Shown: positions 11,736 to 58,089, counted from the stretch's first letter. The stretch: DNA of 64,000 nt from Paenibacillus sp. FSL R5-0517 (GCF_037974355.1 NZ_CP150235.1:2170001-2234000), one strand, 5' to 3'. Notes: generated by a model not told the origin, from the sequence alone. Numbers and translations: made by a program.

Positions 11736-12947
11736 TTATACTTCAGGTGTTCCGTACGTTTCGAACCATTTTTTGATGGTGTCAAAATCATCACTGAAGG
11801 ACAAGCCCAGCATCAATAATACACGAGCTTGTTGTGGACTCAGGTTGTCGCCTGCAATAATGCCTTTGCCGCCGCCGTATACACTTCCCGAACCCGTCCG
11901 AGTGGTGGTCACGAAAATGACACCTTCTTCGATGGCTTTGGTACGCGCTTGTCCCATCGCTCTGGAGATGCCGCCAGCTCCGGTACCGGAAGTCACGATT
12001 CCTTTGGCGCCGCTATTCACGAAACCTTCGATCGCCCCGCCTCCAGCTTCTTGATACGAGATCGCAATTTCAACTTTGGCCAGATCTGCCTTTGTGATTT
12101 TACTTAGATCAAATACGGGCTTCGCTGTGCCTTCAGGTTTCAAGGCACGTGCAGGAGCGCGGTAGATTCGAATGTTTTCTTCATCAATATATCCTACAGC
12201 GCCGAGCATTGGGGTTTCAAACGTATCTGTCCGATAATCATTGGTCTTGGTTACACCACGAGCAAGCTGGATCGTGTCATTCAACATGAGTACAGTGCCG
12301 AATGAAGTGGTACGACCACTGCCTGCAAGCTTGATTGCGTTGTACAGATTGGCTTGAGCGTCAGAACCGATGACAGTCCATGGACGCATGGAGCCTGTGA
12401 TCACGACCGGTTTGTCACTCTGAACCGTCATATCAAGGAAATAGGCGATTTCCTCCATGGTGTCTGTACCTGTAGTAACGACAACACTGTCATACATTGC
12501 AAGAGCTTTATCTACCGTCTGCGACAAGTCATAGAGGTCGGCCATACTATAGGAACCCGAACCTGAGTTTCCAAATTGGAGTGTGCTAACATCAGCAATC
12601 TTCTGTTTATCCGGTAAGGCGTCTACCATCTCTCCAATGGGAAGTGTACCTGCCTTATAATTCTGGAAGCTGGTGGCATCTTCGGATTGTCCGGCAATCG
12701 TTCCGCCCGTTCCGATTACCAGTACATTCGGAAGTGCAGATTGTTTGGAAGAGTCCGGTATTGCAGGGATGGATGTATTGCGAGCCGGCGTAGTGGTTGC
12801 TGTTTGAACAGCGCCTGTTGTGCCTTTCACCTCTACCGTAGCTGCGTGTGCAGCGTAGGTACCAATGGGTGACAACGAGATGGTTAGTGCTGTTAAAGCT
12901 GCGGTACTCCATACGGCCCAGGGACGAAGATTGGATGTTTTACTCAT
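11736..12947 (-). CDS. secreted type II L-asparaginase
   Basis: Hydrolyses L-asparagine to aspartate and ammonia outside the cell. The protein is 403 aa with a signal peptide ending near YAAHA (residues 31-35), then a Thr/Ala-rich spacer to about 70. Catalytic Thr83 is in GTGGTIAG, and the second catalytic pair Thr161-Asp162 is in TTGTDTMEE. ITGSMRPW and the conserved C-terminal region are present. It corresponds to AnsZ of B. subtilis, a nitrogen-regulated enzyme. ATG 12947 has AAGGAGAG 8 bases upstream; an in-frame GTG at 12956 is too close. A GlnR/TnrA-like box lies upstream at 13030-13046. Confidence 0.93.
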   Translation of the reverse strand: MSKTSNLRPWAVWSTAALTALTISLSPIGTYAAHAATVEVKGTTGAVQTATTTPARNTSIPAIPDSSKQSALPNVLVIGTGGTIAGQSEDATSFQNYKAGTLPIGEMVDALPDKQKIADVSTLQFGNSGSGSYSMADLYDLSQTVDKALAMYDSVVVTTGTDTMEEIAYFLDMTVQSDKPVVITGSMRPWTVIGSDAQANLYNAIKLAGSGRTTSFGTVLMLNDTIQLARGVTKTNDYRTDTFETPMLGAVGYIDEENIRIYRAPARALKPEGTAKPVFDLSKITKADLAKVEIAISYQEAGGGAIEGFVNSGAKGIVTSGTGAGGISRAMGQARTKAIEEGVIFVTTTRTGSGSVYGGGKGIIAGDNLSPQQARVLLMLGLSFSDDFDTIKKWFETYGTPEV

Positions 12948-12999
12948 GAATAGCACTCTCCTTCAAGTTAGTGTGATGTTAAGTTTGTTAAGAAGAATA

Positions 13000-54264: not shown

Positions 54265-54294
54265 TTGTCAACTTTCCTCTCTTCTGCTTATAAT
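54265..54294 (+). promoter_or_regulatory. promoter of amtB
   Basis: TTGTCA (54265-54270), 18-bp spacer, TATAAT (54289-54294). Predicted start near 54301. Confidence 0.75.
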
Positions 54295-54315
54295 GACATT
54301 AAGAGTTTCACGTTA

Positions 54316-54332
54316 TGTGAAGAAACTTAACA
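54316..54332 (+). promoter_or_regulatory. GlnR/TnrA-like box in the amtB 5' region
   Basis: TGTGA-N7-TAACA, extended to the arms TTATGT...ACATAA (54313-54335). It lies at about +16 to +32, between the predicted start and the ribosome binding site. That position suits repression under nitrogen excess by GlnR. Confidence 0.7.
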
Positions 54333-54350
54333 TAAGAGGGAGTGGGGTAT

Positions 54351-55751
54351 ATGAGAAAGAAATGGTTGGTTTCCATGTTAGTAATGCTTACTTTGTTAGC
54401 TTTTCCGGTCAGCGCATTTGCGGCTGCGGAGGGTCCGACTAACATTGAACTTCAAAGTGGTTTGAACTCAGCCTTTACGTTTCTGGCTGTGGTACTCGTA
54501 TTCTTGATGCAAGGGGGATTTGCTTTACTCGAAGCGGGTTCAACACGGATGAAGAATGCAGGACACATTGCAGGTAAGACCATCCTGACATTGGGAATTT
54601 CCGTTATTGCCTTCTGGGGGCTGGGTTTTGGTCTAGGCTTCGGTAATGGTAATGGATTTTTTGGAACTACCGGATTCTTCCTAAGTGGAGACAGTATGGC
54701 TGCTTCCTTCGAATCACTGGCTTTCTCCGATGTTCCACTGACTATCAAATTTGTATTCCACCTCGCCTTTGCGGCGGTATCTCTGGCCATTGCCTGCGGT
54801 GGTATGGCTGAACGTGCAAAGATGAGCGTATATATCGTGTTTGGTACATTGTATACCATTATTATGTATCCGGTTGTTGCTCACTGGGTATGGGGCGGCG
54901 GCTGGTTGGCTGAGCTGGGTATGCAAGACTTTGCAGGATCGACGGTAGTTCACTTGACTGGTGCGACTGCAGCATTGGTAGCTACCATCTTGTTGAAACC
55001 ACGTATCGGTAAATATAACAAAGACGGCAAACCTAACATCATTCCAGGTCACAACCAAGTGTATTCCGTACTCGGGGTTATTATCCTCTGGATCGGTTGG
55101 TTTGGATTCAACCCAGGTAGTACGTTATCTGCCATGGGGGATGGATTCTTCGGTTATGTTGCATTGACTACTAACGTAGCTGCAGCAGCAGGTGGTGTTG
55201 CTGCGCTGTTAATCTCGTGGGCAGTACTTGGTAAGTCAGATATTCCTAGCATGTTAAACGGTGTGCTTGCGGCACTCGTTGCGATTACAGGGGCATGTGC
55301 ATTCGTTGAGCCTTGGGCAGCGCTGGTTATCGGTGCTTTGGCGGGTATCATCACATTCTTCACAGCACAGTACTTCGATCGTAAAGGAATTGACGATCCA
55401 ATCTACGCTTTCTCCGTACATGGTATTGCGGGTATGTGGGGTGCGATTTCCACAGGTTTGTTCGCTACTCCTGAACTTGCCGAGAATGCTGGTGTAGGTC
55501 AAGCGGGTCTGTTCTATGGCGGTGGCTTCCACCAATTGGGCGTACAACTTCTAGGTCTGGCGGGTGCTTTTGCCTTCGTACTGGTGATGTCCTTCATTAT
55601 TCTGGGCGGAATGAAAGCGATCATGGGCATCCGTGTTACTGAAGAAGAAGAAACAATGGGTCTGGATATCAGTGAGCACGGTACTTACGGATACCCTGAA
55701 CAAATGAAAAGCGTAGATTCAAAATCCAATGGTGGTACGTTCAGCTCCTGA
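54351..55751 (+). CDS. amtB: ammonium transporter
   Basis: Trimeric ammonium channel, 466 aa: a signal peptide (RKKWLVSMLVMLTLLAFPVSAFAA), then 11 helices. FLMQGGFALLEAGSTRMKNAGH, the pore His region VVHLTGATAAL, and HGIAGMWGAISTG are conserved. The tail has the usual GLDISEHGTYGYP that contacts PII proteins, but no glnB/glnK gene is adjacent. ATG 54351 follows GAGGGAG; GTG 54342 would lie on that site. It is first in an operon with a DUF294 nucleotidyltransferase and a DEDDh exonuclease. Confidence 0.96.
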   Translation: MRKKWLVSMLVMLTLLAFPVSAFAAAEGPTNIELQSGLNSAFTFLAVVLVFLMQGGFALLEAGSTRMKNAGHIAGKTILTLGISVIAFWGLGFGLGFGNGNGFFGTTGFFLSGDSMAASFESLAFSDVPLTIKFVFHLAFAAVSLAIACGGMAERAKMSVYIVFGTLYTIIMYPVVAHWVWGGGWLAELGMQDFAGSTVVHLTGATAALVATILLKPRIGKYNKDGKPNIIPGHNQVYSVLGVIILWIGWFGFNPGSTLSAMGDGFFGYVALTTNVAAAAGGVAALLISWAVLGKSDIPSMLNGVLAALVAITGACAFVEPWAALVIGALAGIITFFTAQYFDRKGIDDPIYAFSVHGIAGMWGAISTGLFATPELAENAGVGQAGLFYGGGFHQLGVQLLGLAGAFAFVLVMSFIILGGMKAIMGIRVTEEEETMGLDISEHGTYGYPEQMKSVDSKSNGGTFSS

Positions 55752-55789
55752 GTTGGATAATGCTGAAACATGCATCAAGGAGGCTGGAC

Positions 55790-56878
55790 ATGATGGAACC
55801 CATCTCGTTTACAAACTACTCCTGGTCTTATCAGGGAATCGATGGTGCGGTGTCTGTTCCAGAACTGCGCCAGGCACGTGTGATATTACAGAATGAGCTC
55901 CAGGATTTGTTGTCCGCTTCCTTGTCGCCAATCGAGTGGTACCAAACGGTAAATGAACTGCATGACCGGATTGCACGGAAAGCAGTAGAGTTATGCATTC
56001 AGGGGATGGTTGAGGAAGGCTTAGGCCAACCTCCCGTCCCCTATGCCTTTATCGTATTTGGCAGTTCTGGCAGGGAAGAAGCAACGTTATGGAGTGATCA
56101 GGACAATGGCATGATTATTAGCGATATCCCATATGAGGGTAAAGGGGCATACTTTGCCGAGCTTGGACAGCGAATCACGGATATGTTAGAAGGGCTTGGT
56201 TACGCCAAGTGCGAAGGCAAAGTTATGTGCTCAGAGTCACTGTGGAGAAAAACGCTGGCATCATGGAAGCAACAATTGGCAGAGTGGAGTTCAGATCTGA
56301 ATTGGGAGCCTGTTCGTAATCTGATCATCGCTTCAGACATGCGTTTTGTTGCGGGGCAGCAAAGTCTGGCAGAGGAGTGGATCACAAGTTTTTATGAACA
56401 ATTCAGACTTGTTCCTGAACTTTCGGATGCCGTTCTTCGCAATACGGTTAAACATAAAGCTACATTAAATGTACTTGGACGTGTGGTCACAGAACGATTT
56501 GGTGAACATGCAGGTGGATTTGATGTCAAGTATGGTTTGTACATCCCACTTGTGAACAGTGCCCGTTATTTGGCTTTGCAGCATGGGATCAAGGAGTCAT
56601 CTACGTTAAAAAGAATGGAGAGACTGACTTCACTTGAAGCTGTTCCGTTTACACTACTGGACGCATGTCAGCGGGCCTTCATAGCCGCTTTGAAGTTTCG
56701 TCGAAGTACGCCGGTTATCATCCAAGGGGATTTGCAACATAGCAGCGGGTTCCTTGATGAGAAACAGATGAAACAAAAACAGATTCATTATGAGCTCAGG
56801 GATACGCTCGGGTTGGTACGACGAGTGCATCGTGCTTTGCAAAGACAGTTGCGTTTTGCAGAAAGGAGACGTCCATGA
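55790..56878 (+). CDS. DUF294 GlnD-like nucleotidyltransferase domain protein
   Basis: A 362-aa protein. The N-terminal half carries the nucleotidyltransferase motif FGSSGREEATLWSDQDNGMI (about 97-116), with the two acidic metal ligands in SDQD, as in GlnD/DUF294. The C-terminal half is the DUF294_C substrate-binding-like helical domain (about 220-355). CBS and cyclic-nucleotide domains, common partners in other bacteria, are missing. ATG 55790 follows AAGGAGG; a start at 55760 precedes it. It begins 39 bp after amtB and overlaps the exonuclease gene by 4 bp. A role in modifying a regulator near the transporter is inferred, not shown. Confidence 0.85.
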   Translation: MMEPISFTNYSWSYQGIDGAVSVPELRQARVILQNELQDLLSASLSPIEWYQTVNELHDRIARKAVELCIQGMVEEGLGQPPVPYAFIVFGSSGREEATLWSDQDNGMIISDIPYEGKGAYFAELGQRITDMLEGLGYAKCEGKVMCSESLWRKTLASWKQQLAEWSSDLNWEPVRNLIIASDMRFVAGQQSLAEEWITSFYEQFRLVPELSDAVLRNTVKHKATLNVLGRVVTERFGEHAGGFDVKYGLYIPLVNSARYLALQHGIKESSTLKRMERLTSLEAVPFTLLDACQRAFIAALKFRRSTPVIIQGDLQHSSGFLDEKQMKQKQIHYELRDTLGLVRRVHRALQRQLRFAERRRP

Positions 56879-57612
56879 GAGAGCCGGCAAGGGGCAATAC
56901 AGGATTCTGGAATTCGCTGCGTCAGGGAGGGGTTCCTTCCGCCATCGCTTCCATTATGGGAGCCCCTACGGCGCAACACATGGCGTTTATCCGCTCGATG
57001 ATGAGAGAACAGCGCAGACCTGAGGTTCTGCATACGCCTCTAAACGAGTTGGACGCAGTTGTATTTGATCTGGAAACGACGGGTTTTTCGCCCCAGCATG
57101 GGGATGAGATTATCTCATTTGGTGCGGTCCGTATACATGGTGGTGTGGTGCTGGAAGGAGAACAGTTCTATACAGTGGTGCAGTCCAAAACTGCGGTCCC
57201 GGAACATATTACTGAACTTACAGGTATTACACAGGAGATGACACTGAACGCGCCAACTTTGTTGGAGGGATTACATGATTTCATGTCTTTTGTAGGCGGA
57301 AATGTTCTGATCGCACACGCAAGTGCGCATGATCGCGCCTTTCTCAATGCTGCGCTGTGGCGGACTTCAAAAGTAAGACTGACGCATCGTTTAATTGATA
57401 CGATGATGTTGGCTCGCTGGCTTGAACCAAGCAGGCCGGGGTATGGTCTGGATGAATTACTGGAATCCAGAGGCATTCCGATCTATGGTCGTCACCATGC
57501 ACTGGAAGATTCGAAAATGACTGCACAGTTATGGTCCTGTTATCTGGAGGACATGATGCGTAAAAATGTGGAGACCCTGGGTGATTTGTATACCCAGCTA
57601 AGTCACGCATAA
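56875..57612 (+). CDS. DEDDh 3'-5' exonuclease (DnaQ/PolC epsilon-like)
   Basis: A 245-aa protein. The N-terminal 50 residues are basic, and the exonuclease domain runs from about 60. Exo I is FDLETTGFSPQHGDEIISFGAVRI (Asp-x-Glu), Exo II is LIAHASAHDRAFLNAAL and Exo III is HHALEDSKMTAQLW with the catalytic His and Asp. No polymerase is attached. ATGA overlap with the DUF294 gene shows coupling. A similar DUF294/DnaQ-like pair is known to me beside solute symporters in proteobacteria. The biological substrate is unknown. Confidence 0.9.
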   Translation: MREPARGNTGFWNSLRQGGVPSAIASIMGAPTAQHMAFIRSMMREQRRPEVLHTPLNELDAVVFDLETTGFSPQHGDEIISFGAVRIHGGVVLEGEQFYTVVQSKTAVPEHITELTGITQEMTLNAPTLLEGLHDFMSFVGGNVLIAHASAHDRAFLNAALWRTSKVRLTHRLIDTMMLARWLEPSRPGYGLDELLESRGIPIYGRHHALEDSKMTAQLWSCYLEDMMRKNVETLGDLYTQLSHA

Positions 57613-58089
57613 CGGAACGGGAAGCAGATGGTAAGAAGGCGCAACGTGGTGTGCTTGATCCGGCAATTCCTTCGAAGATTCAATCTGATATCCGTTCAGA
57701 TGCATACGCGATCGCAACCCGCTTGTTAGGTCAGGTGAGCCGATGAGGTACATCTGAAGCAAACCGGCGAAGGCGGGAAGAGCTTGCATGTCCTCTAGGG
57801 AAGGTACAGGACTAGTCTGCGGATGAGAATGGAAGATGCCGATGAGTTTGGGTTCGGAGAAAACGCACCGAATCCATTCGGCATCGTCCAGAGCAAAATG
57901 GTGCAGCGGGTCAGGTGCTACGTTACGAATGGGCTGAAACCGACTGATTCGTATACCGCCCGCTGCGGTTTCACCCAGCATAACCCCGCAGGCTTCTTGC
58001 GGCAGCGAAAGGAACATGTGCTTACACATCTCTTGTTCTACGGAAGAAGGGATGTAGAAGGTGTTCTGCTGTCCGTGAAGTGCTGCCAT
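57598..58089 (-). CDS. JAMM/MPN+ metallopeptidase (M67 family)
   Basis: A 163-aa Mov34/MPN-fold protease or isopeptidase. Glu32 in PQEACGVMLG and His87, His89, Ser97 and Asp100 in HSHPQTSPVPSLED form the full JAMM zinc motif. Bacterial relatives act on small sulfur-carrier proteins or in metabolite synthesis, but no ubiquitin-like or E1-like gene is adjacent. GAGGGGTGA precedes the ATG. Its 3' end overlaps the exonuclease gene by 15 bp, tail to tail. Confidence 0.88.
   Translation of the reverse strand: MAALHGQQNTFYIPSSVEQEMCKHMFLSLPQEACGVMLGETAAGGIRISRFQPIRNVAPDPLHHFALDDAEWIRCVFSEPKLIGIFHSHPQTSPVPSLEDMQALPAFAGLLQMYLIGSPDLTSGLRSRMHLNGYQIESSKELPDQAHHVAPSYHLLPVPLCVT

Follow-up and report, generated by a model that had tools for sequence, protein, structure and literature searches.

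A DUF294 nucleotidyltransferase and a DEDDh exonuclease are conserved operon partners of the ammonium transporter AmtB in Bacilli, mostly in genomes lacking PII

In the window, i.e., the whole 64,000-nucleotide stretch of Paenibacillus sp. FSL R5-0517 DNA analysed here, the ammonium transporter gene amtB is followed by genes for a DUF294 nucleotidyltransferase and a DEDDh exonuclease, all collinear on the + strand in a single compact operon (54265-57612). The operon, its domains and its promoter are ordinary and were footnoted already in 2012. What is not ordinary is that an enzyme of predicted GlnE fold and an exonuclease are conserved partners of Amt, mostly in PII-less genomes, with parallel symporter operons. 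New here are the absence of PII, the conservation counts, the near-invariant catalytic residues, the predicted GlnE/DrrA fold and the link to symporters. We propose that the DUF294 protein is an AMPylating writer and the exonuclease a de-AMPylating eraser, candidate activities that would act on AmtB or its partner; we put the probability of this reading at a little under 0.4. The features of the operon are as follows.

54265..54294, + strand: sigma-A-like promoter, TTGTCA (54265-54270), 18 bp, TATAAT (54289-54294), by direct reading of the sequence
54316..54332, + strand: GlnR/TnrA box TGTGAAGAAACTTAACA, a perfect TGTNAN7TNACA, 3′ of the -10 (repressor position)
54351..55751, + strand: amtB, ammonium transporter with C-terminal tail GLDISEHGTYGYPE; PF00909 (Ammonium_transp), E 1.5e-111
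55790..56878, + strand: DUF294 short form, nucleotidyltransferase domain plus DUF294_C helical domain; PF03445, E 9.7e-38, and PF10335, E 1.4e-19
56875..57612, + strand: DEDDh (DnaQ/RNase T-like) exonuclease; PF00929 (RNase_T), NCBIfam NF005836

The 38 bp between amtB and the DUF294 gene contain AAGGAGG at 55777-55783. The DUF294 gene is taken to start at 55790; the listed ORF start, 55760, lies upstream of AAGGAGG. The DUF294 and exonuclease genes overlap by 4 bp (ATGA). These positions bear out the original prediction, which had described the three genes as one operon, the last two overlapping by 4 bp, behind a promoter with a GlnR-like box; the DUF294 motif that it had named, GSSGREEATLWSDQD, is present. 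At its other end, the exonuclease gene shares 15 bp (57598-57612) with the 3′ end of a JAB-domain gene (57598-58089, - strand) that converges on it.

Since the box sits 3′ of the -10, repression is expected at that position. A single perfect box in 64 kb is about what chance would produce (about 1.2 expected). Upstream of amt, a perfect box is found in 47 of 53 homologous operons vs. 0.8 in shuffled sequence; the amtB operon has the conserved upstream TGTNAN7TNACA of the GlnR/TnrA regulon. The host genome also encodes glnR-glnA. GlnR binding to the P. polymyxa amtB promoter has been found experimentally, and the box there, ATGTAAAGAAACTTAACAT, is one base apart from that of the window (PMC9948412). 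Elsewhere in the window, two perfect boxes about 165 bp apart (13030 and 13195) lie upstream of an L-asparaginase-like gene with a signal peptide (11736-12956, - strand); in P. polymyxa, GlnR targets ansZ.

Conservation was assessed in 80 genomes with short-form DUF294, from 48 genera and 27 families; most genera contribute one or a few genomes, taken from a ranked list. The DUF294 and exonuclease genes are adjacent in 75 of them, and no exonuclease was detected beside DUF294 in the other 5. The full order amtB-DUF294-exonuclease is found in 55 genomes, representing 35 genera and 22 families. The adjacency, often with overlapping ATGA, is kept even where amtB does not adjoin. In some carriers without upstream amtB, nitrogen genes flank the pair, namely glutamine synthetase (loci L100, L111 and L130) or TnrA (two loci). 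The 2012 comparative study of GlnR in Bacilli places the arrangement in a table footnote on amtB, which includes Anoxybacillus and Geobacillus and carries no functional study (PMC3412718). The original prediction had held that adjacency limited to a few close species, or loss of catalytic residues, would make a functional module unlikely; because the pair is widespread and the catalytic residues are kept (see below), neither applies.

AmtB is usually the partner of PII. The complete host genome (6.9 Mb) has two Amt genes and one DUF294 gene, and no match to PII (PF00543) was found anywhere in it. The original prediction noted that no PII gene is adjacent, which was right and understated. It follows that the GlnK target it suggested cannot apply, and PII was rejected as the DUF294 target. 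Likewise, the 17 sampled genomes of the window's genus have no PII match, and PII is missing from 48 of the 55 Bacilli genomes with the full operon. A survey of 399 Bacilli, in which short and long DUF294 were assigned by hand from open-frame lengths, found 165 genomes with DUF294_C, 90 with canonical PII and 293 with Amt. Of the 145 genomes that have both Amt and short-form DUF294, 114 are without PII, and 50 of 61 genera are without canonical PII. Per genome, the exclusion between DUF294 and PII is modest (odds ratio 0.41, p 6e-4, uncorrected for phylogeny), and many Amt genomes have neither; thus, PII replacement should be read as a tendency and not as a rule. Where both occur and coordinates were compared (e.g., in genomes G219, G574 and G416), the PII gene lies beside another amt gene. 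In the table of PMC3412718, glnK is absent from most species with the noted amtB arrangement, a point that the passages on it do not make. In P. polymyxa WLY78, the gene co-transcribed with amtB is called glnK2 (PMC9948412); it may be a misnamed DUF294 gene, if WLY78 carries the same operon.

The arrangement resembles the amtB-glnK (PII) operon in pairing a GlnR/TnrA-controlled Amt gene with a co-expressed putative regulator. It differs in having an enzyme pair instead of PII in that role, and in the AmtB tail, GYPE vs. AY. The AmtB of the window ends in SEHGTYGYPE, whereas HGxxAY ends nearly all of the PII-linked Bacilli AmtBs compared, which makes the earlier claim that AmtB keeps its PII-contact tail doubtful. 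SEHGxxGYPE is found in 57 of 57 AmtBs linked to the DUF294 pair. It is also kept by AmtBs of six genomes that have no DUF294, so the tail gives no evidence for AmtB as the acceptor; as a clade trait, it was rejected as a sign of the DUF294 target. The second host Amt gene is unlinked (G000:C1:1681770-1682942), and its tail, GLDISYHGVMAAHQAHEF, is without the conserved tyrosine. A 139-aa coiled-coil-like ORF overlaps the start of this gene by 4 bp.

The DUF294 protein matches PF03445 with 129.6 bits (cut-off 21) and PF10335 with 70.8 bits (cut-off 22.5). Its nucleotidyltransferase residues are G91, S92, R95, E97, D103, D105 and D183; among 81 aligned DUF294 proteins, the first six are invariant and D183 is found in 80. 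The Gx11DxD motif of GlnE/DrrA-type protein adenylyltransferases (G91, D103 and D105) is therefore present in 81 of 81. An AF2 model built with 47 sequences (pLDDT 94.6, pTM 0.91) was compared with solved structures by Foldseek and VIA-align 2. The best matches are both halves of E. coli GlnE (1v4a, Z 27.6 over 314 residues; 3k7d, Z 26.6 over 307), and the AMPylation domain of DrrA (6yx5) follows with Z 26.4 over 303 residues, nearly full length. The predicted structure thus has the nucleotidyltransferase plus helical domain of the GlnE/DrrA type. Other nucleotidyltransferases score below 9 (aminoglycoside nucleotidyltransferases up to Z 8.7, Hailong HalB 6.4), and MNT/HEPN proteins match in parts, with Z up to 8.8. 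A DUF294 profile run against the sequences of solved structures gave no significant match, the best being DrrA (E 0.022). Pfam finds DUF294 and DUF294_C alone in the protein, the HD and ACT domains of GlnD being absent, and PF08335 (GlnD/GlnE-type domain) has no match in the complete host genome. Since the fold is nearest to GlnE and DrrA and PF08335 is absent, the earlier description of the enzyme as GlnD-like is unsupported.

Where their function is known, members of the GlnE/DrrA fold have protein substrates, which GlnE and DrrA modify at tyrosines. For this reason a protein is the favoured candidate substrate of DUF294, fold alone being no proof. Removal of AMP by the N-terminal half of GlnE uses the same fold, and so the fold does not give the direction of the reaction. 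With GlnE, the DUF294 model shares the two domains over about 310 residues (Z 26-28) and the nitrogen context. The differences are that GlnE consists of two fused halves vs. one short 362-aa DUF294 copy, that identity is 14-15%, and that DUF294 is linked to amtB and has a separate exonuclease partner. DrrA/SidM AMPylates a tyrosine of a protein, and a separate enzyme takes the AMP off. Its AMPylation domain has the same fold at 11% identity; DrrA, however, is secreted as an effector and targets Rab GTPases of the host, and its de-AMPylase is of another fold.

The exonuclease matches PF00929 with 112.6 bits and has the DEDDh residues D65, E67, D153, H207 and D212. D65 and E67 are found in 76 of 76 homologues and H207/D212 in 74; motif II has D in 44 and E in 31, together 75 of the 76. 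The model is closest to PolC/DnaQ/DinG/RNase T structures. NF005836 is an equivalog named just "hypothetical protein". No fusion of DUF294 to the exonuclease was seen in the proteins scanned. A literature search joining de-AMPylation with DEDD exonucleases gave no match, and we know of no de-AMPylase role for DEDDh enzymes.

The proposal is that DUF294, as a GlnE/DrrA-type protein adenylyltransferase, would transfer AMP onto AmtB or an AmtB-acting protein, most likely on a tyrosine, and that, under one nitrogen state, AMPylation would lower AmtB uptake. The co-translated exonuclease would hydrolyse the phosphodiester, releasing 5′-AMP; cleavage of Tyr-O-P would be chemically like removal of the terminal nucleotide at a 3′ end. 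The pair might then be for AmtB what PII/GlnK is elsewhere, with GlnR/TnrA setting its level together with that of amtB. What we infer is the transfer of AMP, the protein and residue that would accept it, the eraser role of the exonuclease and the sign of the effect. For the many PII-less Bacilli, an enzyme pair conserved in the amtB operon itself is a direct candidate for AmtB control, with testable chemistry.

Long-form DUF294 proteins have the architecture cNMP-binding, CBS, DUF294, DUF294_C. They lie behind SSF symporters in two Bacillota loci, and SSF-long DUF294 with a 3′-5′ exonuclease close downstream is found in Pseudomonas, Salinivibrio, Paracoccus and Limimaricola plasmids. In Skermanella, a symporter-DUF294 pair has no annotated exonuclease alongside, and in Hymenobacter an exonuclease-DUF294 pair adjoins glycosidases. 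In 76 of 80 alphaproteobacterial loci, SSF directly precedes DUF294 and a DEDDh exonuclease follows it within 2 kb, a count biased to Rhodobacterales because the scan reached only Alphaproteobacteria, nearly all of them Rhodobacterales. Tabulating the neighbouring transporter, as the original prediction had advised, gives amtB first in Bacilli and SSF in these loci, a transporter link in two phyla, and its statement that such pairs occur near proteobacterial solute symporters was right. Of its module reading, the widespread transporter-associated pair (Amt in Bacilli, SSF in Proteobacteria and a few Bacillota) stands; GlnK as the target falls with the absence of PII.

In Pseudomonas, PP_0354/PP_0353 and PA3233/PA3232 lie beside ActP and are MxtR/ErdR targets. 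They resemble the present pair in being a DUF294-exonuclease pair in a transporter regulon; they differ in having long-form DUF294 (cNMP-binding and CBS domains), SSF in place of Amt, and two-component control in place of GlnR. According to the passages of PMC9927547 on these P. putida genes, deleting the exonuclease gene pp_0353 or the symporter gene actP-I impairs growth on pyruvate, whereas deleting the DUF294 gene pp_0354 leaves it unimpaired. The exonuclease mutant thus has the transporter mutant's growth defect, and the asymmetry fits what would be expected of an inhibiting writer and a relieving eraser. The same passages cite transposon data of others in which actP-I and pp_0353 are relevant at 5 mM acetate; they settle on no mechanism and offer mRNA decay by the nuclease as a suggestion.

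We count for the writer and eraser reading the GlnE/DrrA fold, the kept catalytic residues, the adjacency, the SSF parallel, the absence of PII and the P. putida phenotypes. Counted against it are the fold's ambiguity as to direction, the tail in DUF294-less genomes, the 5 of 80 genomes lacking an adjoining exonuclease, the lack of a fusion, the P. putida authors' preference for mRNA decay, and the long cNMP-CBS form of DUF294 in P. putida.

Hailong pairs a nucleotidyltransferase producing oligodeoxyadenylate with a membrane channel. By analogy, DUF294 might make or extend a nucleic acid or oligonucleotide, be it a transporter-gating signal or an RNA tail, which the exonuclease would degrade; the nearest relatives of the exonuclease, the PolC/DnaQ/RNase T group, have nucleic acids as their known substrates. 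We consider this unlikely, as the protein adenylyltransferase fold matches nearly full length (Z 26-28) and HalB weakly (Z 6.4). The exonuclease could instead turn over certain mRNAs or oligoribonucleotides, with DUF294 independent of it and co-expression reflecting nitrogen/carbon control. The P. putida phenotype, which comes from the exonuclease and not from the DUF294 gene, and the view favoured in that account (PMC9927547) agree with this; the adjacency of the pair in 75 of 80 genomes, even without a neighbouring amtB, and in Proteobacteria, argues the other way, and we consider this reading unlikely too.

Another conceivable target is glutamine synthetase, the pair then standing in for GlnE and AmtB being merely a genomic neighbour. 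The fold is that of GlnE, and the host genome, without a GlnE/GlnD-type domain, encodes a GlnA1 (G000:C1:1977896-1979317) whose E. coli-like adenylylation loop, DKNIYDLSDADKENIRSVPASLEEAL, has the Tyr (NIYDLS), which makes GlnA1 a genuine rival target. GlnA-type genes adjoin the pair in the three loci named above, and the GlnA1 type tends to be found in the same genomes as short DUF294 (89 of 105 carriers; odds ratio 23.5, uncorrected for phylogeny). Yet 56 short-DUF294 genomes from 23 families lack the GlnA1 type, for which reason adenylylation of this Tyr was rejected as the sole function of DUF294. Moreover, the position aligned with the Tyr is Phe in the GlnA that adjoins the pair in L111, the GlnA in L100 shows no aligned Tyr, and the proteobacterial relatives of the pair sit with symporters. 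Control of glutamine synthetase is, on balance, improbable. GlnD-like nucleotidylation of an AmtB-binding PII protein has in its favour a distant membership of one nucleotidyltransferase superfamily and the usual partnership of AmtB with PII. It is already refuted for the host genome, unless a PII gene was overlooked; with most short-DUF294 genera lacking canonical PII, and PII genes, where present too, adjoining a different amt in the cases compared, its probability is close to nil.

A wider form of the writer and eraser proposal is a PII-independent switch for Amt, and for SSF in Proteobacteria, in which GlnE-like AMPylation of the transporter or its partner is reversed by a DnaQ-fold de-AMPylase. 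We regard it as speculative and somewhat unlikely. That the same pair is found with SSF symporters of acetate, sugar and other types points to a general principle by which transporters are controlled, and a DnaQ-fold de-AMPylase, if true, would be a new role for exonucleases.

The exonuclease of the window has about 57 N-terminal residues ahead of the exonuclease domain (56875-57045), with a predicted helix at 32-45 and a nearly invariant Arg40 (73 of 76). In two proteobacterial loci, the partner exonucleases (L207, 5989-7974; L210, 5959-7350) have N-terminal regions of about 270-450 aa without a Pfam match, and small unassigned ORFs lie between the DUF294 and exonuclease genes.
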